This document shows positions 7,731-25,881 of a stretch of DNA of 31,369 bases, piece by piece. The stretch comes from a virus: the IMG/VR virus record IMGVR_UViG_3300035204_002432, positions 1 through 31,369 of that record. One strand, given 5' to 3'. Numbering within the stretch: position 1 is the first letter of the stretch; each line of letters begins with the position of its first letter. The notes under the pieces were generated by a model, which saw only the letters and a list, made by a program, of their open reading frames with translations, was not told the DNA's origin and did no database searches. Both the position numbers and the translations under genes were made by a program.

Positions 7731-8306
7731 TTAGTTTCTGATTTTGTTTATGGTAGCTTTAACCATATCTGCAGCAAAGCTATCTCCATTATTATCAAAC
7801 TCAGAAGCCAACTTATCAAGAGATTGATACAGCTCTGACTTTCTCTGTGCTTCCTTTACAAGGTCGCCCCTAATGCTAAAAGCTGTAGCTTCGACTACAT
7901 CTGCAGCAAAACCCTCACCTTTAGCTCTCAGACTTGCAGAGATTTTCCCCAGACCATTCATAATGTATTGACCTGTAGGGTCAGCAGTTTTGTGGTTTTC
8001 AGAAACACTCTTTGTCACAGTTCTTTTTCTCATAGGAGCCGGGCCATCTGCGGCCATTGAGTCATCCAGATAATCCATCATTTCACTGATTTGATCTTCA
8101 ACGTTATCACCAGACTCAACATCATCAACCAGCAGGTCTTTCAGGCTCTCATCATCTGCATAAGAAGTTTCCTCCAAGGCTTCGTCCTCTGTGAGGCTCA
8201 TCTCCTCTTCCTCTTGGGCAAGTTTTTTTATTTTTGTTTGGCTATCGCCCAAGATGTTAAAAAACTCTTGGGCGATATTGTTACCATTGCCTCTAATGCT
8301 ATACAT
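7731..8306 (-). CDS. Protein with two copies of a recurrent helical motif
   Basis: A 191-residue protein; ATG at 8306 has a perfect AAGGAGG that overlaps the stop of the preceding protease-scaffold gene. Residues 30-100 are acidic and probably disordered. The C-terminal third holds two related helical units: GKISASLRAKGEGFAADVVE (about 120-139) and DKLASEFDNNGDSFAADMVK (about 164-183), each ending A-x-x-I-R/K-I-R or similar. The second fits the pattern L-A-x-x-L/F-D-x-x-G-x-x-x-E/A-A-D also found in two other genes of this window. No function is known to me. It is likely co-translated with the protease-scaffold protein, so an assembly partner or minor head protein is a fair guess. Confidence 0.75.
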   Translation of the reverse strand: MYSIRGNGNNIAQEFFNILGDSQTKIKKLAQEEEEMSLTEDEALEETSYADDESLKDLLVDDVESGDNVEDQISEMMDYLDDSMAADGPAPMRKRTVTKSVSENHKTADPTGQYIMNGLGKISASLRAKGEGFAADVVEATAFSIRGDLVKEAQRKSELYQSLDKLASEFDNNGDSFAADMVKATINKIRN

Positions 8307-8315
8307 TATGCCTCC

Positions 8316-11300
8316 TTATTCCCACATAGATGCCAGACCATTGGCAGACAGTAGTGATGTGTTAGAAACCGGCTGAGATCCAGAATCGGACTCTACCCCA
8401 ATATTTACTCCTCCAAGATCTGATGCGATCTTAACACTTCCCACTGGACGTGCATTACCGATACTTCTCTTGAATGCTTCAAATGCATTATTATCAAAAG
8501 ACATAATCTCATCAACTTGGCTATCTAGAGCAGTTTTTGTTGTAGACAAAAGACCCTTTCTCTGCATTTCAAGGCCAACATCATAGGCTCTGCGAAGCTT
8601 AACTCTGTATGACTCCCGCTCCTCATCAACTCTCTTTGAAGCAAGGCGTTCGTTTAGAGCTTTCTTTACAGAGCTTTTAGCTTTAGCTTCCACAGTCTGC
8701 TTTGGAGCAGAAGGCTTAGCAGCCTTTGTGGGAGTTTGAGCCGCACCATTAGAAGCCTGACTTACACTGTTTTTAGCTGCAGAATTTTCTGCTTGCTTCA
8801 AAAAGCTAGCCCTCTTATTAGCTCTGTCACTCAGAATTCGATCCTCTGCTTGCTTCAGTATTGCATTGCGTCGAGAACGTCTAAGGTTCATAGCCTCTGA
8901 CACGAGACTGTCAACCGCTGAATCATCAGCATTGTCGATTGAGTCAACAACGGCATTGATAGAATCTTCAGCCGCATCTTCAGCTGCATCTTCAGCTGCA
9001 TCTTCAGCTGCATCTTCAACATAGTTGACTGAATCTTCAACATTATTTGAAGTGCCAAAGTCCATTGAATTAGCCAGCCTCACAAGAGCCTTCGTTTCTC
9101 CTGTAATCTGATCGGCGTCTCTTAGCGCCGAACCAGCAAGCTTAACGAACTGTCCTCGCTGTGTTGAAGATAGCTTTGATATATTATCATATGTCTCTGC
9201 GACCATAGATAACTCATCTGCCGAATCATCAAGCTTTCTGTAAGCCTTCTTGAGATTGCTAAGAACATGACTAGAAAGCGCACCTAGCTCTCCGCCTAAG
9301 TCTCCGCCCTCTGCACCAATATCTTCGCCAGGAGCGCCCTTATCTTTGCCTGTAAAAACATTTACATCAACATCGGCAAGTCTATCGTCCTGAAGCGTTG
9401 CAACAAGATCTCTTACCTCGTCAAGAAGCTGCTCAATCTCTGCAAGCCTATTGTCGATGCCTTCTGCGGGATCTTCAGGCTCTTCTTCGCCCTCTTCTCC
9501 TTCTAAGTCAGCACCCTCATCGAGCGGGGGAAGAGGAGGGAGATCCCCTTCGGCCTCGGGAGGAGCGGCTTCTGCACCACCTGCATCGGGAAGGGGAGGC
9601 AGAGGAGGTAGCTCTTCTCCTCCAGCTTCTTGAGCAGACTTTAAAAGGTTTGCAACATTATCTAATCCAAAGGATCTAATTTGATCACAAACTTCCTTGC
9701 CATAGCTCTGACTCTTTAACCAGTTCCAGTTATCTTTTAGTTCTGGACCAAAAATATCTCCAGCAGTAGCAGATATAACTCTCTTTTTGCCAGCAAAAAC
9801 TTCAAAAAGACTTTTGCCATGATTTATAGACCCATTTGAATTACGACGAACAGTAAAGCGAGTGCTTAGACCGGGACCACTATACGCCTGCTTCTTCAGC
9901 CCCTGGCGCGCAAGTTCTGCTCTATGCAGGTTTTCCTTTGTCTGAGAGTCTCCGGGAAACATTCCAGATGCTCCACCCATATTCCCTGTCTGCTGCATTT
10001 GCTTGTCTTGATTGTCTCGAACATTTTTATAATCTTCAGACTTATAAGTATTGGGCTCAGCGCCATCTGCGCCACCCTGCATGTAAGCAAGTCTACGCAA
10101 CCTTCTCTCTTCAAGCTTGGCTCTGCTCAGTTTTTCCTTGGTTTCTTTGTCTCCAGGAAACATTCCATTGTCGCCGCCCATGCCCTTGTCTTGCTGCATT
10201 TGCTTATCTTTTTTAAAATCAAACGTTTCGCCCTTATAAGTATTGGGCTCAGCGCCATCTGCTCCACCCTGCATGTATGCTACACGACGGCGAAGCTCTG
10301 CTCTCTTCCTTAATCTTGACTCATTCATGATATCCTCCACTATTGAATTTATTGAAAAGTCGTCCACATAATCAATGTCACTACCATTATTGGCAAGTTT
10401 AACATTATGATTCGTGTTATCCGTAGCAAGCTCCGTCAAAACATGACCGCCAGACGGAGATGATAGGGGGTCGCCTTCTGCTGGAAAACCATCAACTGCC
10501 TCTGTTTGCCCGCCACCTAGCAAACCCCTTTTAGAACTAACTCCACTATATTCAGATACGTCTCCGGGCAGTTTAGAGCCTTCCAGGTTTTCGCCTGTAG
10601 TAAACTCTGTTCTGGGAGCCGGACTAATATCTGATTTAGTTGTTGTGTTTAACTTGTTAATTAAACTGCTTATTACATCTTTAACCTCAGAGGATACGCC
10701 CTCATCCGCTAGGACGTTCGTAGCCTCTGATACTGCAGATAAAGTTTCTGCTATATTTCTATCTCTTTCTGAATTATCAGTAAATCCGCCAGCAGCGGTT
10801 TTTAATAATCCATTATTTTCTAAGAACCCTCTTACTATGCTTCTTCTATCTTCCACCGAACATCCGCTTTCGCCGCAAGCAGTCTTCATTATGCCGTCCA
10901 GATGCTCTGCCTGCTTCAAGCTGAGCCGCCCCAACATAGTGCTTACATCGTCTACCCCATAGTTCATAAACTCGCCGGAATACTCCTTCAGGGAGGCTAT
11001 GCACTTTAATAGCACAGCTCCTGGCTCTGCAGGCTGAACAACAAGGCTGTACTCAATGGGCTTTAGACCAACGTTAATTTCACCATGAGCAGTTTTATTG
11101 TTAATATGATTACAATACTCATCTTGCGTAGTAGCACGATTACCACACTCAGAACAAATAGAGGTTTCAACCGCCGTGCCCATAGAGCCGTACCTTACAA
11201 GGCCTGTTTCAACCTTTCTTGCCAACTCTGGATAGTTTACTTTGTCTAATGCGCATAGTCCTATGATTTGTTTAAATTTTTCATCGTAATGTGTATCTAG

Positions 11301-11714
11301 AATTATTCCTCTGATTCCATCTACAGAGCTTGACTCGTGATCTCTGCACAAAGGTAGCCCGACCCAGCTGTTTGCAGCCTTTTTTAATTCAGACTCTGGA
11401 AAGATATCTTTGTTATTATTCCTATGAGGCTGAACATTTCCATTCCAGTTCCAATTTTCATCAAAAAAGCCCCAAGCATCTTCTCCGCTTGAGACCTTTT
11501 TAATATTCCCTTTTTCGTCAAGCATAGCTGATTCAGCCGCTTTAAGAAAGACTATTGAAAAATAAAGGAAGTCATCAGACTTTGGAGCTATGTTCTTTAT
11601 GCTCTGAGCAAGCTTTGTAAATCTCCGGACGAGCTTTGGATTGGCAAGTATATCTTGCCGATCATGTGTGCCCACGATATTATTTTCCGGAGAAAAACAT
11701 ACTTTCTTAAACAT
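8316..11714 (-). CDS. Putative prohead protease fused to long scaffold-like region
   Basis: A 1132-residue protein. The reading frame opens at a TTG (11747), but the ATG at 11714 has GAGGGG six bases upstream and is chosen. Residues about 115-185 resemble the phage prohead protease fold (S78/gp21 type): VGLPLCRDHESSSVDGIRG with H126, a strand IIGLCALDK, a helix PELARKVETG, then LVRYGSMGTAVE with S177. The His-Ser spacing of 51 fits those proteases, making H126 and S177 the likely dyad. A C187-x2-C190-x10-C201-x-H203 zinc-like motif follows directly. The rest is scaffold-like: two 64-residue repeats around YMQGGADGAEPNTYK (about 480-605), proline/acidic tracts (700-750), coiled-coil helices, an AEDA repeat (about 899-916) and a basic Ala/Lys-rich C-terminus. 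Such a fusion would be both scaffold and maturation enzyme. Protease assignment is from motif and spacing only. Confidence 0.65.
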   Translation of the reverse strand: MFKKVCFSPENNIVGTHDRQDILANPKLVRRFTKLAQSIKNIAPKSDDFLYFSIVFLKAAESAMLDEKGNIKKVSSGEDAWGFFDENWNWNGNVQPHRNNNKDIFPESELKKAANSWVGLPLCRDHESSSVDGIRGIILDTHYDEKFKQIIGLCALDKVNYPELARKVETGLVRYGSMGTAVETSICSECGNRATTQDEYCNHINNKTAHGEINVGLKPIEYSLVVQPAEPGAVLLKCIASLKEYSGEFMNYGVDDVSTMLGRLSLKQAEHLDGIMKTACGESGCSVEDRRSIVRGFLENNGLLKTAAGGFTDNSERDRNIAETLSAVSEATNVLADEGVSSEVKDVISSLINKLNTTTKSDISPAPRTEFTTGENLEGSKLPGDVSEYSGVSSKRGLLGGGQTEAVDGFPAEGDPLSSPSGGHVLTELATDNTNHNVKLANNGSDIDYVDDFSINSIVEDIMNESRLRKRAELRRRVAYMQGGADGAEPNTYKGETFDFKKDKQMQQDKGMGGDNGMFPGDKETKEKLSRAKLEERRLRRLAYMQGGADGAEPNTYKSEDYKNVRDNQDKQMQQTGNMGGASGMFPGDSQTKENLHRAELARQGLKKQAYSGPGLSTRFTVRRNSNGSINHGKSLFEVFAGKKRVISATAGDIFGPELKDNWNWLKSQSYGKEVCDQIRSFGLDNVANLLKSAQEAGGEELPPLPPLPDAGGAEAAPPEAEGDLPPLPPLDEGADLEGEEGEEEPEDPAEGIDNRLAEIEQLLDEVRDLVATLQDDRLADVDVNVFTGKDKGAPGEDIGAEGGDLGGELGALSSHVLSNLKKAYRKLDDSADELSMVAETYDNISKLSSTQRGQFVKLAGSALRDADQITGETKALVRLANSMDFGTSNNVEDSVNYVEDAAEDAAEDAAEDAAEDSINAVVDSIDNADDSAVDSLVSEAMNLRRSRRNAILKQAEDRILSDRANKRASFLKQAENSAAKNSVSQASNGAAQTPTKAAKPSAPKQTVEAKAKSSVKKALNERLASKRVDEERESYRVKLRRAYDVGLEMQRKGLLSTTKTALDSQVDEIMSFDNNAFEAFKRSIGNARPVGSVKIASDLGGVNIGVESDSGSQPVSNTSLLSANGLASMWE
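8974..9018. repeat. 12 bp tandem repeat, 3.75 copies
   Basis: Unit GCATCTTCAGCT on the plus strand, exact in all copies, encoding the AEDA repeat in the scaffold-like region of the 1132-residue protein. A slippage-prone minisatellite. Confidence 0.9.
10041..10282. repeat. Direct repeat of about 50 bp with 192 bp period
   Basis: Bases 10041-10090 and 10233-10282 differ at only a few positions. They encode the conserved AYMQGGADGAEPNTYK segment of two successive 64-residue repeats in the scaffold-like part of the protease-scaffold protein. The rest of the two repeat units is more diverged, so this segment is under stronger constraint or was recently homogenised. Confidence 0.85.
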
Positions 11715-11746
11715 AGATAACCCCTCTAAATAAACAGTACAATTCA

Positions 11747-11764
11747 AATATTTATATAAATATT
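11747..11764 (-). promoter_or_regulatory. Palindrome containing a T4-late-like TATAAATA box
   Basis: The 18 bp sequence AATATTTATATAAATATT is its own reverse complement. On the minus strand it includes TATAAATA (11756 to 11749), identical to the T4 late promoter core, and it sits 35 bases before the ATG of the protease-scaffold gene, the right distance for a short leader. I found no second exact copy upstream of other genes here, so chance in AT-rich DNA is possible. Confidence 0.4.
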
Positions 11765-11810
11765 AGTTTTTAAACTTTTTGTGTAATTTTTTTTTGAATT
11801 ACATAGTTTT

Positions 11811-11993
11811 TTATGGCTTGTTTTCTTCAGATTCTTCAGAAGAATACTCTTTTAACACCTTTATTCTTCTATCATCTTCCTCTTCTGAGTCTAAATAAAT
11901 AGTATTTTCTTCTTGAATATCATTATTATTTAATTTTTCTTTTGAATTTTTAACTATGATTCTCTTGGTTTTATCACCAAACTTAATAAACAT
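11811..11993 (-). CDS. Small acidic/basic protein, unknown
   Basis: A 60-residue protein, ATG at 11993 with CGGAG five bases upstream, starting two bases after the stop of the DUF192-containing gene. The first 20 residues are basic with a beta-like stretch (MFIKFGDKTKRIIVKNSKEK); the rest is acidic (SEEEDDRR, SSEESEENKP) and likely disordered. No family recognised. Tight packing and a good ribosome binding site support that it is real. Confidence 0.65.
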   Translation of the reverse strand: MFIKFGDKTKRIIVKNSKEKLNNNDIQEENTIYLDSEEEDDRRIKVLKEYSSEESEENKP

Positions 11994-11995
11994 AT

Positions 11996-14293: not shown

Positions 14294-14337
14294 TTTAACT
14301 CCAAATAATCATATCTTATATTAAAAATAGCAGAATA

Positions 14338-14637
14338 TCAAAGCCTTCTCATCAACTCGCTTAGGACAACATTTATAAAATATGGATCCTTTCCATTTAA
14401 AACATTTTTTATAAGACCAAGGCTAACTCCGATGGCTGCCCCGCCTGGTGCCCGCTTGCCCGCTATCTCCATAACATTAAATTGTTGTATCTTGTTTGAG
14501 ACATTCATATAAGACCTCGGCCTAGCCTCCAAAGACATTCTAGATATCATAATTTTTATTATATTATGCAACTCTTGAGCAACATATACAGCATTTTGTT
14601 CAAGTAGTTGTGCTTTTTTATCTATCTTCTTCGACAT
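14338..14637 (-). CDS. Small helical protein between portal and DUF192 genes
   Basis: A 99-residue protein starting at the ATG at 14637 (MSKKIDKKAQLLEQ), with AAAGG about ten bases upstream. An in-frame ATG at 14685 would add 16 residues but has a poor ribosome binding site and a longer overlap. The chosen start overlaps the previous gene by 20 bp. The protein is mostly helical with a small glycine-rich turn (KRAPGGAAIG). No family recognised. Conserved placement among head genes suggests a small structural or assembly factor; this is inference. Confidence 0.65.
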   Translation of the reverse strand: MSKKIDKKAQLLEQNAVYVAQELHNIIKIMISRMSLEARPRSYMNVSNKIQQFNVMEIAGKRAPGGAAIGVSLGLIKNVLNGKDPYFINVVLSELMRRL

Positions 14638-15178
14638 ATTTCTTCGCCTTTGATACACTGGATTGATAAGCTTCTCTTTTTGCATCTTTCATTTCTGCGC
14701 CTAACTCTACATGCATTTTTAATAATTCATTAAACTGCCGCGTTACTTCTATAAGAATTTCTTCTTGATTATTAAGATCTGACTCAACAATTTTAATTAA
14801 TAAATCTCTAAACAATAAAGAGTAGTCTAAAGACTTTTGAGTAGCAACTTTCTTTATTAAAAAATCTGCAAAATTAGCCAAAGCTAATTCATCGTTATGA
14901 TCTAAATTATCTCCTAAGTTTACGAAGTAATCTAGTAGTTCGCCATAGTCTATAGACTTAAATTTTCTATCTTTTCTTTTTAAGAAAATAGGCTCATCTT
15001 CTTGATCGCTATGCATAGGGGGCATAACGGGTTCGCCAGGAAGAGCGAGACCTCGACCTACGCCGCTGCTGGTATCGCCTGATAGCCCCTCCTCGCCAAC
15101 GTGAACGCTAGGAAGGTCTTTTGGACTAAGCTTCTCCATTACTTCTGGTTTTTTATTTCTATAAGATATTTTTTTCAT
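14618..15178 (-). CDS. Helical protein in portal cluster, weak copy of recurrent motif
   Basis: A 186-residue protein. Its ATG (15178) overlaps the TGA of the previous gene as ATGA, so translation is probably coupled; the local ribosome binding site is only A-rich. Residues 1-60 are a flexible region rich in G, P and S (VGEEGLSGDTSSGVGRG). From about residue 75 it is helical: YFVNLGDNLDHNDELALANF resembles the LAxxLD...AD motif of other genes here but lacks the glycine. A later helix (FNELLKMHVELGAEMKDAKR) ends in a charged tail. No family recognised. Confidence 0.7.
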   Translation of the reverse strand: MKKISYRNKKPEVMEKLSPKDLPSVHVGEEGLSGDTSSGVGRGLALPGEPVMPPMHSDQEDEPIFLKRKDRKFKSIDYGELLDYFVNLGDNLDHNDELALANFADFLIKKVATQKSLDYSLLFRDLLIKIVESDLNNQEEILIEVTRQFNELLKMHVELGAEMKDAKREAYQSSVSKAKKYVEEDR

Positions 15179-15453: not shown

Positions 15454-17172
15454 TTACCCCTCTGGAGGCCCTCCCATTGGCGGTGCTGGCGGAGGTGGTG
15501 GCGCCTCAGGCCCGCCGCCGCCCATCTCAGGCCCACCCGGCATCGGAGGGACTCCGGGCAAGCCTTCTGCCCCAGGTGCCGCCCCCAGACCCTCAGGAGG
15601 CTCTGTTATAGCCTTGCCTGGGTCGAGACCTAACAGTTCAGATAGCTTCATAGCCCCTAATGCCTGCTGCTCTTTAGCAAATATTTGCTCATCAATCATC
15701 TCTTCTCTAATTCTACGTCTTTCGTCTTCGTATCCAAGCCCAAGACTACGATGCAAGGTCTGCAAGGATATTTGCTTATTACCAACGAAAGTGCCGATTG
15801 ATGTTATAAAGTCAGCCATATCGTACAGATTCATATGGTTAAAGTCAATAGATGGGACCAATAATCTTTTTTCTCCGTCCTTATATTCAAAGAAATCTTG
15901 AATTTCACATATAGGTGCAAAGATTTTTCTCTCAAGCCACTTCTTCATCATGTTTCTAAATATATCATATCGCTGCCTAAGAACCTCTAACCCAACAGAA
16001 GAGCTTGCGTAAGTTGCAGCCTCTTGGTCCATCAATGCTTTTGGAGTCATAAGCCCTGCATATAGATTGTTTATAATAAGCTCAATGTCTGTGCCTATCT
16101 CAAGGACTCCTCCGGAGAATCCGTTTCTCTCTATTTTTACACCATTATGAGTAACAATTTTAAAATCTTTATCATACTGAGCTTCTTCTAGAAGATCCTT
16201 AAACGCCTCAATGTCTGATTGGGTGGGGCGGTAATCACCCTCTCCGCCCAAAGTAACTAAGGTTAGAGGGTTTACCATGCCATCCGCCTGGGCAAACTTA
16301 CTCTCTCTAAGCTTGTCATAAAGCATTAAATCTTTATATATAGATACAATGACAGAAGTTCCTCTTACATCATATGGAGAGCTTAAAAGCTTTAAGTGCG
16401 CCACGTTAAATGCGTCTAATGGAATATTTTGCCCTTTTTTAACATAATTTATAATATGTTTCGGAATATATTTTCTTAAAGACAAATCTGCAGGAGAGGT
16501 TGAGCTGATAATTCTTTGCAAATTTGCATCTGGCCGAAGAGAAACCAGTGTATGATTCCCTATGACAGACTTTTTAACATGTACATAATCTGGATTTAAT
16601 ATTGTTATTCTATTCCAGACCCCAAGGCTTTCATCTAGTTCGGCATAAGGAAATGCCTCACCCATCTTCCAAAACTCTAAGGCGGCCCCATAAACAACAG
16701 AATATAAATCAATTTTTTCCGCCATCTCCATAAAAAATTGTTGTACTTTTTTGTTCTTACAAGTTATGTTTATTTTACTAATAGGATAAGAGGCATGAAG
16801 GTTAATGGCATTTCTAACTATAGGGTGTGTATCATAAAAAACGCGATTCCACGCGTTCATAGTCACGCGATCCCTAGGAAGGTTTAGGTTAGCCAGCTGA
16901 AATAAAGGCGAGTAAATCTCGGGAGACATCCTGTCCGTTGTAGAAGAAACAGTTGGACTAGCCATAGGCGAAGCTATAGACGCATTTTTTATCATATTTA
17001 AGCTATCTCTTCTAAAGCCTGGGCTGTGAGCTATTGAGCCATAAATGCCGGCCTCACTCTCTTGATCTATTTGCTTGTTTGCCGCGTCTGTTATTTGCGC
17101 CCTTCTTACTTCAGAGATGGAGCCGGCTGCTTTCTTTGAAATCTTAGTCTTGGGTCTATCTGTTCTTCTCAT
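15454..17172 (-). CDS. Portal protein
   Basis: A 572-residue protein, ATG at 17172 after AAGGAG, starting two bases after the terminase stop. Residues about 85-140 contain the typical portal start region (NLPRDRVTMNAWNRVFYDTH then PIVRNAINLHASYPISK). Further on are KLLSSPYDVRGTSVIVSIYK, where portal proteins usually have the P-x-x-x-x-G-x-S segment near the clip/stem, and a helix region LEVLRQRYDIFRNMMKKWLE matching the wing/crown helices. The last 40 residues are a Pro/Gly-rich tail. The portal forms the dodecameric ring at one capsid vertex through which TerL pumps DNA. Order terminase-portal is classic. Length and position make this a confident call despite no single catalytic motif. Confidence 0.85.
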   Translation of the reverse strand: MRRTDRPKTKISKKAAGSISEVRRAQITDAANKQIDQESEAGIYGSIAHSPGFRRDSLNMIKNASIASPMASPTVSSTTDRMSPEIYSPLFQLANLNLPRDRVTMNAWNRVFYDTHPIVRNAINLHASYPISKINITCKNKKVQQFFMEMAEKIDLYSVVYGAALEFWKMGEAFPYAELDESLGVWNRITILNPDYVHVKKSVIGNHTLVSLRPDANLQRIISSTSPADLSLRKYIPKHIINYVKKGQNIPLDAFNVAHLKLLSSPYDVRGTSVIVSIYKDLMLYDKLRESKFAQADGMVNPLTLVTLGGEGDYRPTQSDIEAFKDLLEEAQYDKDFKIVTHNGVKIERNGFSGGVLEIGTDIELIINNLYAGLMTPKALMDQEAATYASSSVGLEVLRQRYDIFRNMMKKWLERKIFAPICEIQDFFEYKDGEKRLLVPSIDFNHMNLYDMADFITSIGTFVGNKQISLQTLHRSLGLGYEDERRRIREEMIDEQIFAKEQQALGAMKLSELLGLDPGKAITEPPEGLGAAPGAEGLPGVPPMPGGPEMGGGGPEAPPPPPAPPMGGPPEG

Positions 17173-17174: not shown

Positions 17175-18947
17175 TTAAATTCTCCTTTTAACATTTGCTA
17201 TTGTAGACCTCAGATAATCTGACTTTCTCTCTAAACCAGGTTTAATAGTAAAACCTTTTGTTATATCAAATTTATATGCAATATAAGCATACATAAGAGC
17301 CATAAGTCCATCATTTGGTGTCGATCCTTTTACAAATACTTTTATTGGCTGTCCGCCAGATACTCTAACCTTCGATTCCATAGATGTACAATGATCTATC
17401 AACCACTCTAGATATTCATAGCTTTTCCAGGGAAACCTTATTTTCCCCTTTCTAAATAAATCAAAAAGCTCATCAATTAAAAGATCTTTATTATAAGAAA
17501 TTATTAATTCATCTTCTCTGTATTTTATAGGCTTTATTAAACTGCCGCTCCCCTGTGCTCCCAAAAACTTTTCTCTATAAATACTTTGTAGATCATGCAC
17601 AACATCTTGCCCGAAGAACCAGTCAGACACCCCACGGTGAACACCAAATCTTCTATACATCTCTTTTATTGTATCTTTCTTAAAATCAAAATTATTTTTT
17701 CTTAATTTATGAGCATGCTCAACCAACAATGTTCCATCAGGCTCTGCCGACAAAACAACTACGCAAGAATATGATTGGCCTCCACGAGAGTTTGGATCAT
17801 CGTCTTTCCCGCCCCAGTCAACCCCTAGATAAACAGACTTATCATGTGGATTAATTTTCTTTGAAAAGCTTCGCTCTGAATCTCTGCAAAGATTATATAT
17901 TTCAGCCTTAGTAAGGGGAGATCCGGCACCAGAGTAAAACTCTCCAACCACTTCGTTTTGCCAAATTCTTTCCGTTTGAGCGGGATTATTTTCTGGCATT
18001 AATTTTTCAATATTTTCTTTTGTAAAATAAGGAATATATAGTTGATTTATATGAAACCCAACAAACTCGCTATTTTCGGCACCATCTGAGCCCACCCACC
18101 TTCCAAGCTCTGTTGCTTGTACTTTTTTCTGCTTTGTTCCGCACAATGGACACTGAATTGTATTTTCATATAGCCATATAGATCTCCACCTATCATCATT
18201 TGGTAAATAAAATGGGTATGTTTTTTTACAATTAATACAACCTAGATGATAATATCTTTGGTCTGACATATCCCAAATCGTAGAAAAATAACTGCCCTTT
18301 TGTTTTGGTGTTCCGAAGTAAACCTGAACACCTTGACCGACAGGTCCATACTTTGCTGCTGTTAAAATTTTTGTAGCGTTTCCAATGGCATGACCAAACA
18401 TGTCTTGTACCTCATCAAAAAATACAATATCGGCTGTCATACCACGAATTCTGTCTCCATCTGACCCAAGACTATCGACCCACAAGGTTCCAGCATTAAA
18501 CTGCTTCATAGTCAAGTTATCTACAGAATTTGAGCTAATAAGCTTATTTTTATTGATAAAATCATTTTTAGCAGTTCGAATCAATGTTTCAAGCTTATCT
18601 TGGGAAAACTTTTTAACCTGACCTAGCGCTGGAAATAAATGTACGACTCTAACATTTGGATTATCAAACAATCCGCTGTTTGTAAAAAACAAATCAAGAG
18701 CGCCAGCCATCACGGTGGCTCCAACCTGACGCCCCTTCTTTATAACAACTGGCTTTCCATCTTTTCTGGTAGCTTGCAAGGCAATATATCTATATATATC
18801 AGCCATAAACTTCCATCCATTATCTAGGACACTAAATTCTGCTCCATCTAAAGTAAGATTGTTTTGAACAAAATGAGCTGGATCGAAATCTAGGAAGCTT
18901 GTTTTGAGTTGATTAAAAAGTTGTTCTTTGCTTTGTTTCTTTGACAT
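17175..18947 (-). CDS. Terminase large subunit with zinc-ribbon insertion
   Basis: A 590-residue DNA-packaging motor and nuclease, ATG at 18947. ATPase: Walker A-like KKGRQVGATV (70-79), Walker B IVFFDE (174-179) with the catalytic E179, and coupling motif FGTPKQKGS (211-219). Between ATPase and nuclease sits a zinc-ribbon: C237-x2-C240 and C266-x2-C269, as in lambda gpA-like terminases. The RNase H-like nuclease has LGVDWGG (D377), GVSDWFFGQD (D442) and a C-terminal NDGLMALMYAY segment near the usual third acidic position. All key residues are present, so the enzyme looks active. It is followed directly by the portal gene. A possible small subunit is the helix-turn-helix protein at 24212-24895, which is not adjacent. 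Confidence 0.93.
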   Translation of the reverse strand: MSKKQSKEQLFNQLKTSFLDFDPAHFVQNNLTLDGAEFSVLDNGWKFMADIYRYIALQATRKDGKPVVIKKGRQVGATVMAGALDLFFTNSGLFDNPNVRVVHLFPALGQVKKFSQDKLETLIRTAKNDFINKNKLISSNSVDNLTMKQFNAGTLWVDSLGSDGDRIRGMTADIVFFDEVQDMFGHAIGNATKILTAAKYGPVGQGVQVYFGTPKQKGSYFSTIWDMSDQRYYHLGCINCKKTYPFYLPNDDRWRSIWLYENTIQCPLCGTKQKKVQATELGRWVGSDGAENSEFVGFHINQLYIPYFTKENIEKLMPENNPAQTERIWQNEVVGEFYSGAGSPLTKAEIYNLCRDSERSFSKKINPHDKSVYLGVDWGGKDDDPNSRGGQSYSCVVVLSAEPDGTLLVEHAHKLRKNNFDFKKDTIKEMYRRFGVHRGVSDWFFGQDVVHDLQSIYREKFLGAQGSGSLIKPIKYREDELIISYNKDLLIDELFDLFRKGKIRFPWKSYEYLEWLIDHCTSMESKVRVSGGQPIKVFVKGSTPNDGLMALMYAYIAYKFDITKGFTIKPGLERKSDYLRSTIANVKRRI

Positions 18948-18949
18948 TA

Positions 18950-19543
18950 TTATCCGGATGCATGAGCCATATAATCTGCTATGTCATCTCCAAATGTTGA
19001 TGGCATATCTGCTTCAGATATATATTCTACTTTTTCCGGATCAATTTTGTGTTTTTTGAGAATCTTTTCAATCAAGCTTTTGAACTTATTGTGATCTATC
19101 TTGCTTTCAATTCTGTCGAATCCTAGTTTGGGATGCTCTCTGCAGTGATTTACGATTGTTCCATAGCTTATATCTGAACGATCTTTTGCAAAAGCTTCAA
19201 TATATTCTAATATAGATCTAAGAGTTTTTAATATATCCTCTTGAGTGCTGCCGCCACAAGAGCCGCATTTTCCTTTACCAGCCTTTTCCGAGCAGCAATC
19301 GTCTTCACATCCAGCAGATTTTATATTTTTATTATTTTCTGTATTAATGTTTTTAACTAGATTAAAGCCGGCACGCTCTTTTAGGTCTGCCATTTTTTCT
19401 TCTATTGTAGAGAAATCATTGCGTCTTTTCATAACCGAACGAAGATTGCTGAGATAATCAGCATTCTTTTCTAAGCTTCTTACAAAGCTGCTAACACATT
19501 CTGAAGCTCTTTGATCACGCACTCTGTTTATTTTAAAAGACAT
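18950..19543 (-). CDS. Helical protein with cysteine-rich centre
   Basis: A 197-residue protein, ATG at 19543 with AAGGA upstream, ending two bases before the terminase start. The N-terminal 75 residues are helical and charged; residues 79-98 form a compact cysteine cluster C79-x3-C83-C84-x8-C93-x2-C96 followed by GG, a candidate metal site; the C-terminal half is helical (KFKSLIEKILKKHKIDPEKV) and ends near FGDDIADYMAHASG. No family recognised. Its position directly before TerL suggests a packaging or assembly role. Confidence 0.7.
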   Translation of the reverse strand: MSFKINRVRDQRASECVSSFVRSLEKNADYLSNLRSVMKRRNDFSTIEEKMADLKERAGFNLVKNINTENNKNIKSAGCEDDCCSEKAGKGKCGSCGGSTQEDILKTLRSILEYIEAFAKDRSDISYGTIVNHCREHPKLGFDRIESKIDHNKFKSLIEKILKKHKIDPEKVEYISEADMPSTFGDDIADYMAHASG

Positions 19544-19574
19544 ATTTTAAATCCTTAATTAATTAAAAGAAACT

Positions 19575-20003
19575 CTAAAGATCACTAAGCTTTTCTGGAA
19601 CTCCACCAAGGGTCTTCAAAACCTCTGCGACAACGGCTTTAAATGCTTCGGCCAAATCAGCTTCAGCGAGACAGCCTTTGGCAATCTCCAATACATTTTT
19701 AGGTATTTCGTCTTTAACTAATGGATTTCCCATTTTATTCTTAATGCAGACCAAAAACTTTTCCGCCTCTGCCTTGAAGAAAAAATATCCAGGGATATTC
19801 TCTAGCGCTTCTTGTATATCTTCGATAGAAACCTGGGAATGCGGCATATCTCCAGGCAAAATGGAATCACTGGGCGGTTCGCCGCTCAGCTTCGTTAAAA
19901 CCATATCAACAAAATCTGCCTCTTTAGTTTTTCCTATATTATCCAAATGATTGGCAAGCTTAGTAAGATCTTTAGTTATAGACTCTATTTTGTAATTATT
20001 CAT
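19575..20003 (-). CDS. Small protein with N-terminal LANHLD...EAD motif
   Basis: A 142-residue protein; ATG at 20003 follows AGGAG and an eight-base gap from the previous stop. Residues about 13-38 contain the recurrent helix pair KLANHLDNIGKTKEADFVDM, nearly the same as in the gene at 24991-25881. The remainder is helical: IQEALENIPGYFFFKAEAEK, then a segment ending AEAFKAVVAEVLKTLGGVP. No known family. The shared motif suggests it binds the same partner as the other motif-bearing proteins. Confidence 0.75.
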   Translation of the reverse strand: MNNYKIESITKDLTKLANHLDNIGKTKEADFVDMVLTKLSGEPPSDSILPGDMPHSQVSIEDIQEALENIPGYFFFKAEAEKFLVCIKNKMGNPLVKDEIPKNVLEIAKGCLAEADLAEAFKAVVAEVLKTLGGVPEKLSDL

Positions 20004-20011
20004 TTTTTCTC

Positions 20012-21016
20012 CTATGCAAAATAATTTCTCATGAAATCAACACCGGCCTTGCCATCGGCATCTTTGCTATCGGCATTATTTGGGGAGTATGTCCCACGAT
20101 CTTTGAAGATGTGAAACCCACTATCCATACATAGTTGCATTATTGCAAGTTCTTCCCTGTCATCAATGGAGTACTTCTTCGCCAGGAATCCATAAACATC
20201 CTCCATAGAATGTCCACCAGATACATGTGCGTTAATCATAATGCCAGATATAGCCCTCTCAAAAGGACTAACCGCTATAACTATATTATTTGGAGTGCCA
20301 GCCTCTTTTTTTAATTCTTTGTAGTCAACTTCTTTTCCGGAGCTATTTGTCCACTTCGGAATCCCACCGGAATCCAGCGAGGACTCCTTCGTGTGCTCTT
20401 CTTTAAACTTCTTCTTTAATTTTCCAAGATGGTTTTTTAGCACCAAGATATCCTTCATTATGTTTACTCTAACACTCTCAAGAGATTGCACATCCAAGGC
20501 GTTATCCCCATCCTCACGAATGGCACCTGAGATTTGAGAATTTAACTTGTCCAAAAATGTTATAGCCTTTTCGCATCCCACCATGCTTCTGCCATCATGC
20601 TGAGGGATGTTTGCAGGATATTGATCTCCAATGTAATCCATAAATTTAGACAAATCACCATCATTTACATAATCAGTCTCTTTGTCTTTGGCATCATCTT
20701 CAAAATCTTGCAGGAAAACCTCAGGAGCACCAGGCAGCGGTTCATCTCCATGCTTTTCCACAAACTCTGTTATGCTATCATCAAGGTCTCCAAGGCTATC
20801 TTCGCCCTCAATTAATGGCTCAAAGAATTCCGCTACAGTCTCTGCCTCAGAATTACCTTCATCGCCTACCGACGCCATACCTGCTCCAAAGATCTCCTCT
20901 TCACTCAAGCCTTCAAATGCATCTTCAGCATAAGAAACATGATCATCTTCAGCATAAGAAACAGCCTCCTCAAAGGTTGCTTCTTTAAAAATTGTTGTTT
21001 CTAAATTATTAGCCAT
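20012..21016 (-). CDS. Large acidic protein, unknown function
   Basis: A 334-residue protein, ATG at 21016 after AGGAG. The first 120 residues are strongly acidic, with an 8-residue duplication (VSYAEDDH then VSYAEDAF) near residue 20-34. Residues 130-225 are helical with a basic stretch KNHLGKLKKKFKEEH; the C-terminal part from about 245 (NNIVIAVSPFERAISGIMIN) looks like a compact alpha domain ending in FMRNYFA. No catalytic motif or membrane segment seen. The acidic N-terminus could mimic DNA or mark a scaffold-like protein; neither is proven. Confidence 0.7.
   Translation of the reverse strand: MANNLETTIFKEATFEEAVSYAEDDHVSYAEDAFEGLSEEEIFGAGMASVGDEGNSEAETVAEFFEPLIEGEDSLGDLDDSITEFVEKHGDEPLPGAPEVFLQDFEDDAKDKETDYVNDGDLSKFMDYIGDQYPANIPQHDGRSMVGCEKAITFLDKLNSQISGAIREDGDNALDVQSLESVRVNIMKDILVLKNHLGKLKKKFKEEHTKESSLDSGGIPKWTNSSGKEVDYKELKKEAGTPNNIVIAVSPFERAISGIMINAHVSGGHSMEDVYGFLAKKYSIDDREELAIMQLCMDSGFHIFKDRGTYSPNNADSKDADGKAGVDFMRNYFA
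20920..20963. repeat. 20 bp direct repeat, period 24 bp
   Basis: CATCTTCAGCATAAGAAACA occurs at 20920-20939 and 20944-20963. It encodes the duplicated VSYAED segment near the start of the 334-residue acidic protein. Confidence 0.85.
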
Positions 21017-21024
21017 TTTTACTC

Positions 21025-21459
21025 CTACCCTATTAAGCTATAAAGTCCATAATATACGTTTCTACTTTCATTATTATCAGAATAATAATCCAACGGATAA
21101 CCATATTGAGCTTCTGGCATATTGCCAATCATAATATGTGGATACAACGGGCTTCCGTTGAGTCCTACATTACCCGCAGGAATAGTAGATAAATCTGGAT
21201 TATCCGGATCATACTTACAATCAACAGATTCTTCCTTAAGGGTTACGTCTGCGAATGGACATTTTGAAATCTCTGCTCCAGATGCAGCCAACATCGTCTC
21301 TCTCCATGTTTCTAGGTTTTCTTCAACAATAGCTTTGGCATCTTCCTCATTATCTGCTAGTTCCACAGGGGTTAGCCTTCTGATGGCTAACCCCGCTGTT
21401 TTGCAGCCATCTGTTATAGGAAGTCCAAATGGACATTTGTTTGATTTTCCTCTGATCAT
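21025..21459 (-). CDS. Small protein with two CPF...C motifs
   Basis: A 144-residue protein, ATG at 21459, AGGA ten bases upstream. It holds two related cysteine motifs: KCPFGLPITDGCK (C9, C19) and KCPFADVTLKEESVDCKYD (C67, C81), separated by a charged helix. The four cysteines could form one metal site or two disulfides. The C-terminal half is rich in G, N, P and Y (MPEAQYGYPLDYYSDNNESR). I have the impression of similar CPFG proteins in uncultured marine phages, but cannot name a family. Role unknown. Confidence 0.7.
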   Translation of the reverse strand: MIRGKSNKCPFGLPITDGCKTAGLAIRRLTPVELADNEEDAKAIVEENLETWRETMLAASGAEISKCPFADVTLKEESVDCKYDPDNPDLSTIPAGNVGLNGSPLYPHIMIGNMPEAQYGYPLDYYSDNNESRNVYYGLYSLIG

Positions 21460-21498
21460 GGTTAGTATATCCTGTAATTAAAATAAATATTAGTATGT

Positions 21499-22347
21499 CT
21501 AAATATTCAATGTTTTTAACTTATACTCAGACAAATTAATTACATCATCTAAATATTTATTTATCAACTTTCTTTTAATCAATTCTTCTTTAAAGTTACC
21601 AACCAACGGAACTGTTGGAAGAAGATTCATTTCTGATAAATAATGCATTGTTATATCTGCGTTTTTATTGATGGACTCACCTATAATGGATGTTATAAAG
21701 GCTTCCTTTAGAACCCATTTGTTTTCTCCAGTAAACTTATCCCTATTTTCTCGTGTATAATCAATAATATCTCCATCTATAGAGAGGCCAAAACGAGCGG
21801 CAAAATTAATTGATCTAAAAACACGCCTAAAATCATCATTCAAAGTTATTCGAGCAGGAACAGGGGTTCTTAGGATTTTATTATCCAAATCCTCTTTTCC
21901 TTTGTTTATAAAGTCTAAAATTTTATCATCAAAAAATTTCTTATGCAAAGTATTTATTGTAAAATCTCTACTATAAACTTCGAATAATTTTCTATCTTTA
22001 ATATTTAATTCTTTCGTTATATAGTCAACTACATCTACAGAAATAAAGTTGCTTGAAAAATCAAGAACTGCATCTTTTATATAAATAGTGAGGTGCCCAT
22101 CCTTAAAAAACTTAAACCTTTCTTGCATATAGTCTGCACAGGTTATGCCCAACCTTGTAGTTTCAGAATCATTGGTGGTTATATCTATATCTCTAAATTC
22201 GTCTTCCGAGTTTGCATAAAAAGAATCACGCTCCTCCTGAAGGTTGAGGTATAAGTTTCGAGGAACACCTCCAACTATATAGGGTTCAACTATATAATTT
22301 TCTTTGCATATTTTTAATATATTTGAATATATGTTATCAAGATTCAT
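21499..22347 (-). CDS. CCA-adding enzyme/poly(A) polymerase-like nucleotidyltransferase
   Basis: A 282-residue protein; the ATG at 22347 has AAAGGGG seven bases upstream (an adjacent TTG at 22350 is unlikely). It shows the class II Pol-beta nucleotidyltransferase motifs in order: YIVGGVPRNLYL (26-31 is GGVPRN), metal-binding DID at 53-55 (FRDIDITT), a third-acid strand SVDVVDY near 103-108, SRDFTINTL (126-134) matching R-R-D-F-T-x-N, and NDDFRRVFRSINFAARFGL (170-188) matching the template-arginine helix. Family members add or repair tRNA CCA ends or add poly(A). The protein is short; bacterial CCA enzymes are usually about 400 residues, so the C-terminal RNA-binding body/tail is reduced. GGVPRN has N where D is usual. 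It may act on viral or host tRNA ends. Confidence 0.8.
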   Translation of the reverse strand: MNLDNIYSNILKICKENYIVEPYIVGGVPRNLYLNLQEERDSFYANSEDEFRDIDITTNDSETTRLGITCADYMQERFKFFKDGHLTIYIKDAVLDFSSNFISVDVVDYITKELNIKDRKLFEVYSRDFTINTLHKKFFDDKILDFINKGKEDLDNKILRTPVPARITLNDDFRRVFRSINFAARFGLSIDGDIIDYTRENRDKFTGENKWVLKEAFITSIIGESINKNADITMHYLSEMNLLPTVPLVGNFKEELIKRKLINKYLDDVINLSEYKLKTLNI

Positions 22348-22366
22348 CAAGAAACCCCTTTAAACT

Positions 22367-23953
22367 TTATTGAGGCATCCCTAATTCTTCTGCAGCGGGG
22401 GCCTCTTCTGCAGCGGGGGCCTCGGCCGCCTCCTCTTCTTGCGGCCCAGAAGCATCTTCTGTTCCAGGTATAGTATTTTGAGCCTGAACTAAGGCCTTAG
22501 CATTTGCAAGTTGCCCCATCATCTTCGTTACCCTCGTTAAAGCGTATGAGAATGCATCAATCAACTTACTTTGAGACTCTGCAAGCTCTGGAAACATAGA
22601 TGCTATACCTATTTTGTCTAACATTATGTCAAATTCGGCTAATTGGCGAATTATTCTTCTATCCGCAAGCATACCAGCAACTTCATCGAGCTTTGCGGCA
22701 GCGTCTTCAAGCTTTATCTCTCCAGCAAGCTCGCTGTACTCACCCTGCCTAGCTCCAGGGATCGGAGTAATATCCTCAAAAGAAACTGGCTCTACATCGT
22801 CTGACTTTGGAATCCCATCTTTAGGCTCTGGGGGAGATGTGTCCTCTGTAGCTTCGCCTTCTGGGGCGGCCTCTAAAACTGGACCAACCCCTCCCTCTGC
22901 GGGTGGTTGCACAGGCGCCTCCTGTTGCTCTTCAAGCCTGGGATCTGGCCGAGCCTCCAAAGGCGGTTGCTCCGGAACCTCTTGGGCTATTTTCTTTAAA
23001 ATTTCAGCTCCCTCTTTGTGTCCCAGCTTGGTAAAGCTATTCGCCGTCTTGTAAGTTACATCTGACATGGTATTGCTTAATTTTAACATTTGAACTTGCA
23101 AACTTAGATTCATAAGATGCTCTGCAAGAATCCTATAGGTATCTGAATCCATATACTTGTCTGTTCTCAAAAGCTTATCTATACGTCTAATTGCAGTATG
23201 AAGCTTGCCCTTCCAGCCGCTAAAGGCATCTTTGTCTCGAACGGCTTTATCGGCGTTTGATGACACATGATCAAAAAGATGTTGATCAAGGCTGTCTCCG
23301 GGCATATTATAACCCGTATTTTCTCCCAAATATGCACTTCCTCCGCCGGCATAATATGGGCTATTTCCCTGTCCCATATCGCTAATGTAAACAGCTTTCT
23401 TTTTCATATCTTTATCCTCTTTTGAACTGTATTTCAAATGTTCACCGTTACTATAATATTTAAACCATTTTTTAAACTTTTCATCTTCATCTTCTTCTAT
23501 ATTTAAAAAATTACTATAATAATCCAAAGCATTCTCCTTTGTCATCTCCTGACTTGCAACTGAATCATAGATAAGGTGAACAACCTTTAACCAATTATTA
23601 ACATCAAATTCTTCTCGAACGTCTTCTCTGAATCCGCCTACGTTTGGATAGGCAACCTTTTTTATTTGTCCTTTCTCTAATTTCATTCCAACTATATTAT
23701 AATAAGCATCATTTAAATTTCTTGTTTTTAATTTTAATAATTCTATTTTTTCTTCTGTGGAAAGCTTTATTTTAAAGCTTTTTGATGCTGATTTTAATAA
23801 AAAATACTTTTTAAATTTTTCATCGCTATCGATGCCAAGGCTGGTTAGCTCCTCAGACTTTTCAGATATATGATCAAATTCAGGCGAACTAGCGCTGATA
23901 GACAAACTTGCCAGTTTTTTAATAAAATAATTATTTATTTTATCTTTACTCAC
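22367..23953 (-). CDS. Multi-domain helical protein with Pro/Glu linkers, unknown
   Basis: A 528-residue protein. The frame also opens at a GTG at 24019, but the GTG at 23953 overlaps the upstream TGA as GTGA and has GAGG six bases before it, so it is preferred. Residues 1-165 are helical and charged; 170-225 contain a Gly-rich turn (SPYYAGGGSAYLGENTGY); 245-325 are helical (DTYRILAEHLMNLSLQVQML); 327-400 is a Pro/Glu-rich linker; 410-490 is a second helical domain with QLAEFDIMLDKIGIASMFPE and QSKLIDAFSYALTRVTKMMG; the tail is Ala/Glu-rich. No family recognised. The LAEFDIMLDKIG segment faintly recalls the recurrent helical motif in this window. Domain-and-linker layout suggests a structural or scaffold-like protein. 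Confidence 0.7.
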   Translation of the reverse strand: MSKDKINNYFIKKLASLSISASSPEFDHISEKSEELTSLGIDSDEKFKKYFLLKSASKSFKIKLSTEEKIELLKLKTRNLNDAYYNIVGMKLEKGQIKKVAYPNVGGFREDVREEFDVNNWLKVVHLIYDSVASQEMTKENALDYYSNFLNIEEDEDEKFKKWFKYYSNGEHLKYSSKEDKDMKKKAVYISDMGQGNSPYYAGGGSAYLGENTGYNMPGDSLDQHLFDHVSSNADKAVRDKDAFSGWKGKLHTAIRRIDKLLRTDKYMDSDTYRILAEHLMNLSLQVQMLKLSNTMSDVTYKTANSFTKLGHKEGAEILKKIAQEVPEQPPLEARPDPRLEEQQEAPVQPPAEGGVGPVLEAAPEGEATEDTSPPEPKDGIPKSDDVEPVSFEDITPIPGARQGEYSELAGEIKLEDAAAKLDEVAGMLADRRIIRQLAEFDIMLDKIGIASMFPELAESQSKLIDAFSYALTRVTKMMGQLANAKALVQAQNTIPGTEDASGPQEEEAAEAPAAEEAPAAEELGMPQ

Positions 23954-24219
23954 ACTGACCGCCTCGTCCACTCTGTCAAGCTTTCTACTCCCAATATTCC
24001 TTTGATCTCTTTTTTCCACTCGTTTACCACTTCTCCGTTTAATTCAGAAAGTTTTGGAATAATATATTCTTTTAAGAATTTCTCTACATGATTGGTTTTA
24101 ACATCAGATATTTCGCTATATATAGAGAGATTCTCTACTAGCCAGTTCTTAAAAGATATTTCACTATTTAAATCTTTTAGGTCAAGACGTTTTTCGTATA
24201 TTTCGTTTTCACTAGACAT
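23950..24219 (-). CDS. Small protein coupled to both neighbours
   Basis: An 89-residue protein; ATG at 24219 with GGGAG nine bases upstream, overlapping the stop of the helix-turn-helix gene by 8 bp. It ends in GTGA, so the next gene starts inside its stop codon. Sequence is helical and charged (FKNWLVENLSIYSEISDVKT, FLKEYIIPKLSELNGEVV). No family recognised. The double overlap means three genes here are probably translated as one coupled unit. Confidence 0.65.
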   Translation of the reverse strand: MSSENEIYEKRLDLKDLNSEISFKNWLVENLSIYSEISDVKTNHVEKFLKEYIIPKLSELNGEVVNEWKKEIKGILGVESLTEWTRRSV

Positions 24220-24895
24220 CTATAACTTCTCCCTGAATATAATCTAGACTTTCTCCGTTTAGCTCTCGCGTCTTAACGTCTAATCTGTCAATAAAAATTG
24301 GCACAAGATTTGGGCTTAACTCCTGCAACACGTCTAGCACGGCCTCCTTTAAAATTCTAGCCTGTTCATTTACTACATTAATATTAATATTATGTTCAAT
24401 TTTTTTATCTGCAACACCTTCAATGTACTTCTTCCAATCCTGCATCAATGTCTTCATAGTGTTTATATATTCAATGAAAATCTTATCCTCCCGAAGTGAG
24501 CCTCCTTCTTGTAGTAAGTTATAATAGTATTCGATTCTAGAATTTATAAGACTATCTAACTCAAGGAGTCTTTTTGCGACATCTAATTCAGATGTTGCAA
24601 TTTCATCAATCTTCTGCTGGTATGATGAAGAAGCCTTTATGATCATGCGAGCCTCAGCCTCTGTAGCCTCCCTATCTATCTCTCCTCTTCTGTTTTTAAT
24701 ATCATCTAAAACCTCGCCCTTTAAATTTAGGTGTTCACCCCTAAACTTTTGCAAAGTCATATAGGAGACATGGAGCCTTCTGGTTCTTGGATACTTATCT
24801 TTAAGCCAGCGCTCTACCTCTTTTACGGAGTCGCCTTCCAAAAGCTTTTTTATAAGCTCCTCTTTGTCTGGATGGTTTAATACTTTTTTGCTCAT
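24212..24895 (-). CDS. Helix-turn-helix protein, possible terminase small subunit
   Basis: A 227-residue protein; ATG at 24895 after GAGG. The N-terminal 50 residues contain a helix-turn-helix-like region: HPDKEELIKKLLEGDSVKEV followed by a basic YPRTRRLHVSYMTLQKFRGE recognition segment. Residues 60-170 are long helices, some likely coiled coil (SELDVAKRLLELDSLINSRI), and the C-terminal part (VNEQARILKEAVLDVLQELS) is helical. DNA-binding N-terminus plus helical oligomerisation core is the layout of phage small terminase subunits, which recognise the packaging site. It is not adjacent to TerL, so other DNA-binding roles are possible. It starts just after a strong terminator. Confidence 0.65.
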   Translation of the reverse strand: MSKKVLNHPDKEELIKKLLEGDSVKEVERWLKDKYPRTRRLHVSYMTLQKFRGEHLNLKGEVLDDIKNRRGEIDREATEAEARMIIKASSSYQQKIDEIATSELDVAKRLLELDSLINSRIEYYYNLLQEGGSLREDKIFIEYINTMKTLMQDWKKYIEGVADKKIEHNININVVNEQARILKEAVLDVLQELSPNLVPIFIDRLDVKTRELNGESLDYIQGEVIDV

Positions 24896-24905
24896 ATTTG
24901 CCTCT

Positions 24906-24945
24906 AAAAATAAAAAGTCCCAGCTTTATATTACTAAGCCAGGAC
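24906..24945 (-). terminator. Rho-independent terminator with wobble stem
   Basis: In minus-strand RNA GUCCUGGCUU pairs with AAGCUGGGAC over all 10 positions (two G-U pairs) around a 9-base loop, followed by UUUUUAUUUUU. The wobble pairs work only in this orientation. It follows the stop codon at 24991 by about 45 bases and divides the replication-side genes from the packaging module. Confidence 0.9.
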
Positions 24946-24990
24946 ATTAATATTTAATTTATAAGTCAATTGAAATCAGCAGCCCAAAGC

Positions 24991-25881
24991 CTACCCTGCC
25001 TCAGGATCTCCAGCCTCATCTAGATCCGCTTGGCCACCTGCCGACTGATCCTTGATCTCGGCCGCTGTCATCTCTTCAGCCGGGATATCGATACCCGGCG
25101 ACGGTAGCGGAACCCAATCATGCGTCTCCAAGGAGGCCGCCGACTGCACAAGTTCCAATATCGCCTGAGCCTCAACAGGCGTAAGATCCTCTGCACTGCT
25201 TCTTAATAAAGATGTTATTTGCTTAACATAGGATCTGACAGTCTCTCTTAAGGCTCTATCCTCTCCCTTTTGACCCTTTAACGCTCTAATCTCTTCTATG
25301 AGTTGTCTTTTTTTCTCCGGATTAGACTCAAATACCTTCTTAAGGGTAAGGCCAAAAATTGATCTTGATTCTTTTACCAAAGAGTCTAAATAATCAGCCT
25401 CTTTTACTAAGCCGATCTTATCCAAATGATTTGCCAAATGCATCATGCTGGACTGTAATGCTGCGCCACCACCAGGAAACTCTCTGCCGTCTTCCGTTTT
25501 AAAGCCTTCATTGTAATCGTAAACCTTATTGGTAAAGGGATCTTGAAATACACCATCAGACACGCGCATAGCCTGCACGCCCACGCGATCTGGAGAGTAT
25601 CTAGTTGATAAATGTGTTGCGCCAGTCTCGCTGGGAACATATGAATCTTCATGGTCAGGAGTTATTCCATATAGGCTATCGGTATCTCTACCTAAAAGCT
25701 CCCCGCCCCTAGTTGCTAAATACCTTTCACGAGTTGCATACTCTGCCACATTTGATTGAAAGTGCTGAAAAGCACCATGCTGATCTCCGAGAGCAAACTT
25801 TCTGAGAGCTTTTCTTCTATTTGGCTCATTGCTTTTGGAGCTTTTTAATATATTTTTTATTTTTTTAACTCTATTGCCCAT
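24991..25881 (-). CDS. Protein with central LANHLD...EAD motif, unknown
   Basis: A 296-residue protein; ATG at 25881 with AAGGA overlapping the previous stop (TAAGGA). The N-terminus is basic (MGNRVKKIKNILKSSKSN), residues 30-140 look loosely structured with G, D, Y and S, then residues 147-170 contain the recurrent helix pair HLANHLDKIGLVKEADYLDS. A helical part follows (KKRQLIEEIRALKGQKGEDR, ILELVQSAASLETHD), and the C-terminus is acidic (ADLDEAGDPEAG). No family recognised. It is the last gene before the terminator at 24906-24945. Confidence 0.75.
   Translation of the reverse strand: MGNRVKKIKNILKSSKSNEPNRRKALRKFALGDQHGAFQHFQSNVAEYATRERYLATRGGELLGRDTDSLYGITPDHEDSYVPSETGATHLSTRYSPDRVGVQAMRVSDGVFQDPFTNKVYDYNEGFKTEDGREFPGGGAALQSSMMHLANHLDKIGLVKEADYLDSLVKESRSIFGLTLKKVFESNPEKKRQLIEEIRALKGQKGEDRALRETVRSYVKQITSLLRSSAEDLTPVEAQAILELVQSAASLETHDWVPLPSPGIDIPAEEMTAAEIKDQSAGGQADLDEAGDPEAG

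Follow-up and report, generated by a model that had tools for sequence, protein, structure and literature searches.

A short helical hairpin shared by unrelated proteins in a clade of uncultured jumbo phages: a candidate docking tag for prohead cargo

Introduction

The internal-protein genes of bacteriophage T4 vary in their bodies and share an N-terminal capsid-targeting sequence (CTS), a short propeptide of 10–19 residues that targets the proteins to the prohead core (PMC9026906). In SPN3US, gp53 and gp54 have an identical start, though they have otherwise diverged (PMC5694885). Similarly, the propeptides of phiKZ and SPN3US are N-terminal extensions on packaged head or ejection proteins of jumbo phages; several of them exceed 100 residues, they are cleaved after AXE and, unlike the element described here, they do not form one common sequence module. 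Our search of open-access papers for this element or its clade returned the T4 and SPN3US precedents only, and an earlier description elsewhere is possible.

Here we describe a tag of about 30 residues carried by many otherwise unrelated proteins of a phage clade. It is a real, bounded module, larger in extent than could be seen in the preliminary description of this DNA, which had proposed a shared helical motif, and we suggest that it could dock cargo at the prohead core.

Results

The window, by which we mean the whole stretch of DNA analysed, is the complete IMG/VR record IMGVR_UViG_3300035204_002432 (31,369 bases). It contains a tailed-phage head operon that encodes terminase, portal, a head maturation protease bearing a long extension, and major capsid protein. 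Gene calls are mechanical, made by an ORF caller, and ORF counts take in some spurious ORFs. The head genes are as follows.

2498..3520, minus strand: major capsid protein (context; phrog_2522, E 2e-71)
8316..11747, minus strand: head maturation protease with a long C-terminal extension (phrog_18299, E 4.6e-13, residues 120-221)
15454..17172, minus strand: portal protein (context; phrog_16240, E 7e-51)
17175..18947, minus strand: terminase large subunit (context, and the query for finding relatives; phrog_675, E 4e-61)

The closest isolate is Bacillus phage G, whose gp27 shares 50% identity with the capsid protein; the terminase shares about 25% identity at most with those of isolates. A terminase search returned at least 80 related viral contigs or loci of up to 395 kb. 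The capsid match and these terminase relatives argue for placing the window in an uncultured jumbo-phage clade that is related to phage G.

Within this clade, a strict regular expression for the motif found 29 copies in 81 related records, and none in 20 shuffles or in reversed proteins. An iterated 30-column profile, the scan of related phages from clear copies that had been suggested at the outset, raised the number to more than 100, the best shuffled-control match to the final profile having an E of 0.66. Because that profile was trained on families that it later scored, profile–profile comparison and profiles built from one family only or from N-terminal tags only serve as independent checks. 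At the DNA level, a pattern for LAxxLDxxGxxxEA[DN]xxD matched 99 stretches in IMG/VR, and the same pattern shifted one base out of frame, used as a chance control, had 0 matches in IMG/VR viral contigs and 4 in genomes. Nearly all of 39 further motif-bearing records are linked to the clade through a shared terminase or through other proteins compared with the motif masked. The Leu/Ala/Lys/Glu-rich composition of the tag might invite the view that these are chance similarities among helical low-complexity segments. This idea is refuted by the shuffled, reversed and out-of-frame controls together with a search of 682 bacterial genomes of two phyla, in which the tag profile had no match, and we give it a negligible probability. 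Equal-rate matching of random proteins, named beforehand as one outcome that would count against the motif, was likewise not seen.

Outside the clade, no PDB sequence matched the tag at E 1 or better, no Pfam, PHROGs or NCBIfam model covers it, and in these collections 2 of 97 tagged proteins is the most that any one family matches. A tblastn search of INPHARED with the 31-residue consensus, run without a positive control, gave no match at E 10. Although the phage G capsid is 50% identical to that of the window, the 497 kb phage G genome has no tag copy at E 1 or better; none was found in four other jumbo-phage records, and no isolate was found carrying the motif. Among the sequences searched, these results place the tag in this clade only. 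The lack of a tagged isolate among phage G and the four other records bears on docking at the head, and we count it against that reading.

Aligning 67 unrelated N-tagged proteins gave the clade consensus MIKELIKLANxLDxKGLxKEADYLDSIIKKAA, a conserved block of about 32 residues. Information content stays high between the initiator Met and column 30, and is approximately zero from column 31. D11 is invariant, and G14, A19 and D23 are almost invariant. Masking the motif left 243 tagged proteins in 97 clusters without other similarity, as the preliminary description had held for the few proteins it considered. It also placed the motif at the N-terminus, in the middle or at the C-terminus, which is correct but undersells an N-terminal bias: among cluster representatives, 71 of 102 copies begin no later than residue 12, and 38 begin exactly at residue 3.

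All the peptides quoted in the preliminary description are present in the genes it named. Copies in the window, with the genes that carry them, are listed below.

24991..25881, minus strand: FAM1, a conserved core of ~110 residues (about 26-138) plus tag; many relatives have a second, C-terminal tag
25363..25452, minus strand: tag copy SSMMHLANHLDKIGLVKEADYLDSLVKESR, residues 144-173 of the 24991-25881 protein (HMM E 2e-14, hhalign P 98%)
19575..20003, minus strand: tagged cargo gene in a variable slot, between conserved 20012-21016 and 18950-19543, just upstream of terminase
19884..19973, minus strand: its N-terminal tag KDLTKLANHLDNIGKTKEADFVDMVLTKLS, residues 11-40 (HMM E 6.5e-13, hhalign P 99%, N-tag-only profile E 1.2e-12)
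14618..15178, minus strand: FAM0, a head-operon protein between portal and protease, conserved in ~37 related loci
14843..14932, minus strand: divergent tag-like hairpin DYFVNLGDNLDHNDELALANFADFLIKKVA, residues 83-112 (HMM E 1.5e-9, hhalign P 97%)
7731..8306, minus strand: FAM3, an acidic protein encoded immediately after the protease/scaffold gene, with two probable copies at its C-terminal end
7869..7958, minus strand: probable divergent copy NGLGKISASLRAKGEGFAADVVEATAFSIR, residues 117-146 (E 4e-7, reached only by an iterated profile trained on its family as well)
7737..7826, minus strand: probable divergent copy QSLDKLASEFDNNGDSFAADMVKATINKIR, residues 161-190 (E 2e-11 after iteration, hhalign P 26%)
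19442..19483, minus strand: possible half-motif around LEKNADYLSNLRS, residues 21-34 (hhalign P 64%, columns 12-25 only)

The copies at 24991-25881 and 19575-20003 bear out the claim of a shared motif. SSMMHLANHLDKIGLVKEADYLDSLVKESR lies directly after the conserved core of its protein and was recovered at E 1.5e-12 by a profile built only from the N-terminal tags of unrelated proteins. The copy at 14618-15178 had been called weak, and here we read it as firm because a profile made from its orthologues alone, with no cargo tags, matches N-terminal tags elsewhere at E ~2e-6. The pair at 7731-8306 had been presented as clear, and is better described as a probable, divergent pair of copies. Its E value drops only when its family sits in the training set: relatives reach E 0.15-0.32 with the N-terminal-tag-only profile and 0.003 with profile A1, the protein itself is reached neither by that tag-only profile nor by the 14618-15178-only profile, and NGLGKISASLRAKGEGFAADVVEATAFSIR is not found by hhalign or the N-tag-only profile. 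LEKNADYLSNLRS belongs to the conserved gene adjoining the slot, and its reading as half a motif is uncertain. Two further weak versions did not hold up: 6496-6900 (hhalign P 0.1%) scored no better than reversed controls and 22367-23953 (P 2.5%, scored as 22367-24019) little better, and both were rejected.

An AlphaFold model of the 14618-15178 protein, built with 30 homologues, has a mean pLDDT of 75.6 and places the motif (83-112) in a helix at 78-94, a three-residue turn and a second helix at 98-115, with pLDDT ~87. The tag is thus predicted to be a helical hairpin, two helices joined at the conserved Asp/Gly turn. A structure search with this model returned no credible fold relative, and the model of the 24991-25881 protein was poor (pLDDT 58). 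The spacing of Leu, Ala, Leu, Gly and Glu-Ala in the tag is similar to that of a TPR helix pair, although the tag forms single hairpins and not tandem arrays; TPR identity, an idea taken from this spacing, was rejected because only 1 of 40 motif copies matches the TPR model, at E 0.08. One could also imagine the hairpin as a general pairing or solubility module, in which tags bind each other to form mixed oligomers with no fixed address. The amphipathic two-helix pattern, with conserved hydrophobic or small residues at L, A, L, A, L and I positions, would suit such a module, as would the finding of as many as three copies on a single protein (L015, L181). It would nevertheless need neither a start at residue 3, nor the dominance of one gene slot, nor the invariant D-xx-G turn and conserved Asp at column 23, and we consider it quite unlikely.

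That dominant slot lies between 20012-21016 and 18950-19543, directly upstream of terminase, and is empty in most phages. Where it is filled, 12 of the 15 occupant families are N-tagged and mutually non-homologous outside the tag; a LysM/cell-wall hydrolase and a PilZ protein are among these tagged families, and the L012 slot gene is a homologue of a tagged gene whose tag has decayed. The genome-wide fraction of N-tagged ORFs is 2.1% (26/1254), and the resulting P of ~1e-17 is a guide rather than an exact value, spurious ORFs being counted and the profile being partly seeded from slot genes. The pattern in the slot is one in which the body is exchanged and the tag kept. Across the clade, domains found on tagged cargo include LysM with cell-wall hydrolase, ArdC-N, methyltransferase, PilZ, cupin and beta-solenoid; among them are wall-degrading, host-modifying and, for ArdC-N, anti-restriction-like types.

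Within one genome, tags on unrelated proteins average 57% identity (74% in G042). Their fourfold silent sites agree at 40% within genomes (38% in G042) versus 33% between genomes. Silent sites are therefore near-saturated while amino acids are kept, so the tag is under selection as a protein and is not freshly copied DNA. This result bears on the possibility that the tag is a sequence that spreads as recombination copies it into gene starts, and that does nothing for the phage. Several clustered copies per genome, and the somewhat greater likeness of tags within a genome, would be expected of such a sequence, but saturation of silent sites beneath conserved amino acids would not, and we find it very improbable.

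FAM1 records how the tag moves relative to its host domains. In most phages the FAM1 core is followed by the tag, where the protein often ends; in six (L184, L214, L225, L207, L174, L209) tags lie N-terminal to the core, and in the most distant relatives (L062, L065, L067, L056, L045, L050) the core stops where the tag would begin. A Met stands just before the motif in 15 of 32 internal copies, some of these being start-codon choices of the ORF caller, as expected if internal copies were former N-termini fused to another domain. These arrangements argue that the tag is mobile relative to its host domains.

Discussion

In several respects the tag resembles the CTS of T4 IPI-III and Alt. Both are sequences common to otherwise divergent phage accessory proteins with variable cargo, and the tag shares the predominantly N-terminal position on unrelated proteins. 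The phage encodes its own head maturation protease (8316-11747), and gene order in the tagged clade is T4-like, the order in T4 being portal, small core proteins, protease and capsid. The 14618-15178 gene occupies what we take to be the position of T4 gp67/gp68. The differences are equally clear. The tag has its own sequence and, as a predicted hairpin, is longer than the CTS; it also stands at internal and C-terminal positions on head-operon proteins, it is found on dozens of cargo families compared with a handful in T4, and a place in the virion is proposed for it. In addition, the T4 CTS is cleaved, whereas the tag has no visible cleavage site: apart from the tag's own K-x-A end, no cleavage motif was clearly enriched after it, although the specificity of this clade's protease may differ. 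The preliminary description had envisaged a mobile helix pair acting as a docking or capsid-targeting tag. Its picture of a mobile helix pair is borne out, in that the module is bounded, mobile, selected as protein, helical in a fair AlphaFold model and present on both head-operon proteins and cargo; capsid targeting stays a proposal, and the T4 parallel does not extend to the protease site.

We propose that the tag is a docking tag that would bring varied cargo to one phage receptor, most likely in the prohead core, a reading in which we place evenly balanced confidence. We favor the prohead because related hairpins occur both on conserved proteins of the head operon and on exchangeable cargo, because of the cargo domain types, and because of an association in copy number: the nine genomes with tagged FAM1 have ~1.4-8 further copies per 100 kb versus 0-0.9 in four without it, an association confounded by descent. 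In this model, many different accessory proteins would be brought by the tag to a common receptor, probably part of the prohead core, where the conserved 14618-15178 protein, the 24991-25881 protein and probably the 7731-8306 protein would present the same hairpin. The 8316..11747 protein is a candidate scaffold and a candidate docking partner. Cargo would become part of the head and might be delivered with the DNA, and its body could be freely exchanged as long as the tag was retained. More specifically, a single prohead receptor may gather up to ~20 tagged proteins per phage, with cargo recruited by gain of the tag and swapped in the terminase-side slot; this fuller version we advance tentatively, and think it slightly likelier to fail than to hold.

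The hairpin might instead label another phage-made place, such as the tail, the ejection apparatus, a compartment for replication or assembly, or a phage-encoded early-effector hub; the head-operon copies would then reflect a docking fold employed in both settings. Clusters of tagged genes often lie at a distance from the head operon (G003 33-42 kb, G011 1.9-5.4 kb, G026 53-62 kb), the cargo includes enzymes that could act in the infected cell, and no protease site was found after the tag. The conserved copies on head-operon proteins such as 14618-15178, and a cargo slot that adjoins the terminase gene, speak for the head and make another destination unlikely overall, though with an appreciable chance. 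The distance of so many tagged genes from the head operon, the lack of a conserved protease site, the poor FAM1 model and the near-absence of copies in some clade members are also counted against head docking. A small remaining share of probability goes to spreading or chance copies and to roles not foreseen here.

Should the tag prove to be a head address, each tagged gene would become a candidate injected protein, which would suggest functions for dozens of unannotated families. The tag would then offer a signal, movable between proteins, for loading very large capsids, and would illustrate clearly how phages recruit new virion cargo by attaching a short shared module.

Tag copies number up to 13 in one relative (G011) and up to 22 in another (G026), often in rows of neighbouring small genes, and the 395 kb clade member G001 has almost none. 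Since some members of the clade are nearly copy-free, the tag is not essential to this head type.

A second motif on tagged proteins

The hairpin tag, a helical hairpin of about 30 residues common to otherwise unrelated proteins of this jumbo-phage clade, is accompanied in some of them by a second common motif, DRINKLAELMSREFTTxxxGxFRR, which forms the extreme C-terminus of eight proteins. All eight also carry the tag, and no credible copy of the motif was found in any untagged protein. Sites (G and L handles denote other viral records or loci, mostly of this clade):

G004 190716-193380, C-terminal motif
G009 72340-73149, C-terminal motif
G011 32229-33155, C-terminal motif
G003 33283-34050, C-terminal motif
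G008, C-terminal motif
G014, C-terminal motif

In the window, the conserved gene at 18950-19543, which adjoins the variable cargo slot upstream of the terminase, contains a possible half-motif, LEKNADYLSNLRS, to which hhalign gives a probability of 64% and which may be a shortened form of the tag.

Enzyme-like and membrane-like tagged proteins

One conserved protein of several phages combines the tag with an HEYGH metallopeptidase-like signature, either as a single fused gene or as two to three adjoining tagged genes, and some phages add a repeat resembling peptidoglycan-binding domains:

G003 68751-70463, HEYGH protein
G004 192430-193380, HEYGH protein
G005 155125-156459, HEYGH protein
G012 78680-80029, HEYGH protein

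The tagged proteins at L175 4833-5600 and L161 6932-7774 resemble divergent protein kinases by eye (GDLDLMNMG...LVILDVG); the Pfam kinase model matched neither. At L226 2659-3165, a hydrophobic stretch directly follows the tag and ends in a lipobox-like GASGC, as if this protein also bore a membrane or lipoprotein signal.

Other genes of the window

A tRNA nucleotidyltransferase-like gene (21499-22350; phrog_2244, E 3e-12) lies within the head operon and is also kept by relatives. Within the long extension of the head maturation protease (8316-11747), a unit of about 55 residues (AYMQGGADGAEPNTYK...QMQQ...GMFPGD..TKE.L) recurs as an imperfect direct repeat; the extension also has an acidic EDAAEDAAEDAAED stretch. 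Relative to gp27 of Bacillus phage G, whose start coincides with that of the conserved part, the major capsid protein (2498-3520) has about 45 extra N-terminal residues, which could be a propeptide. By eye, we also noted:

707-1315, J-domain-like C-terminus
29623-30777, RecA-like protein
30783-31346, GroEL-like chaperonin, C-terminal half
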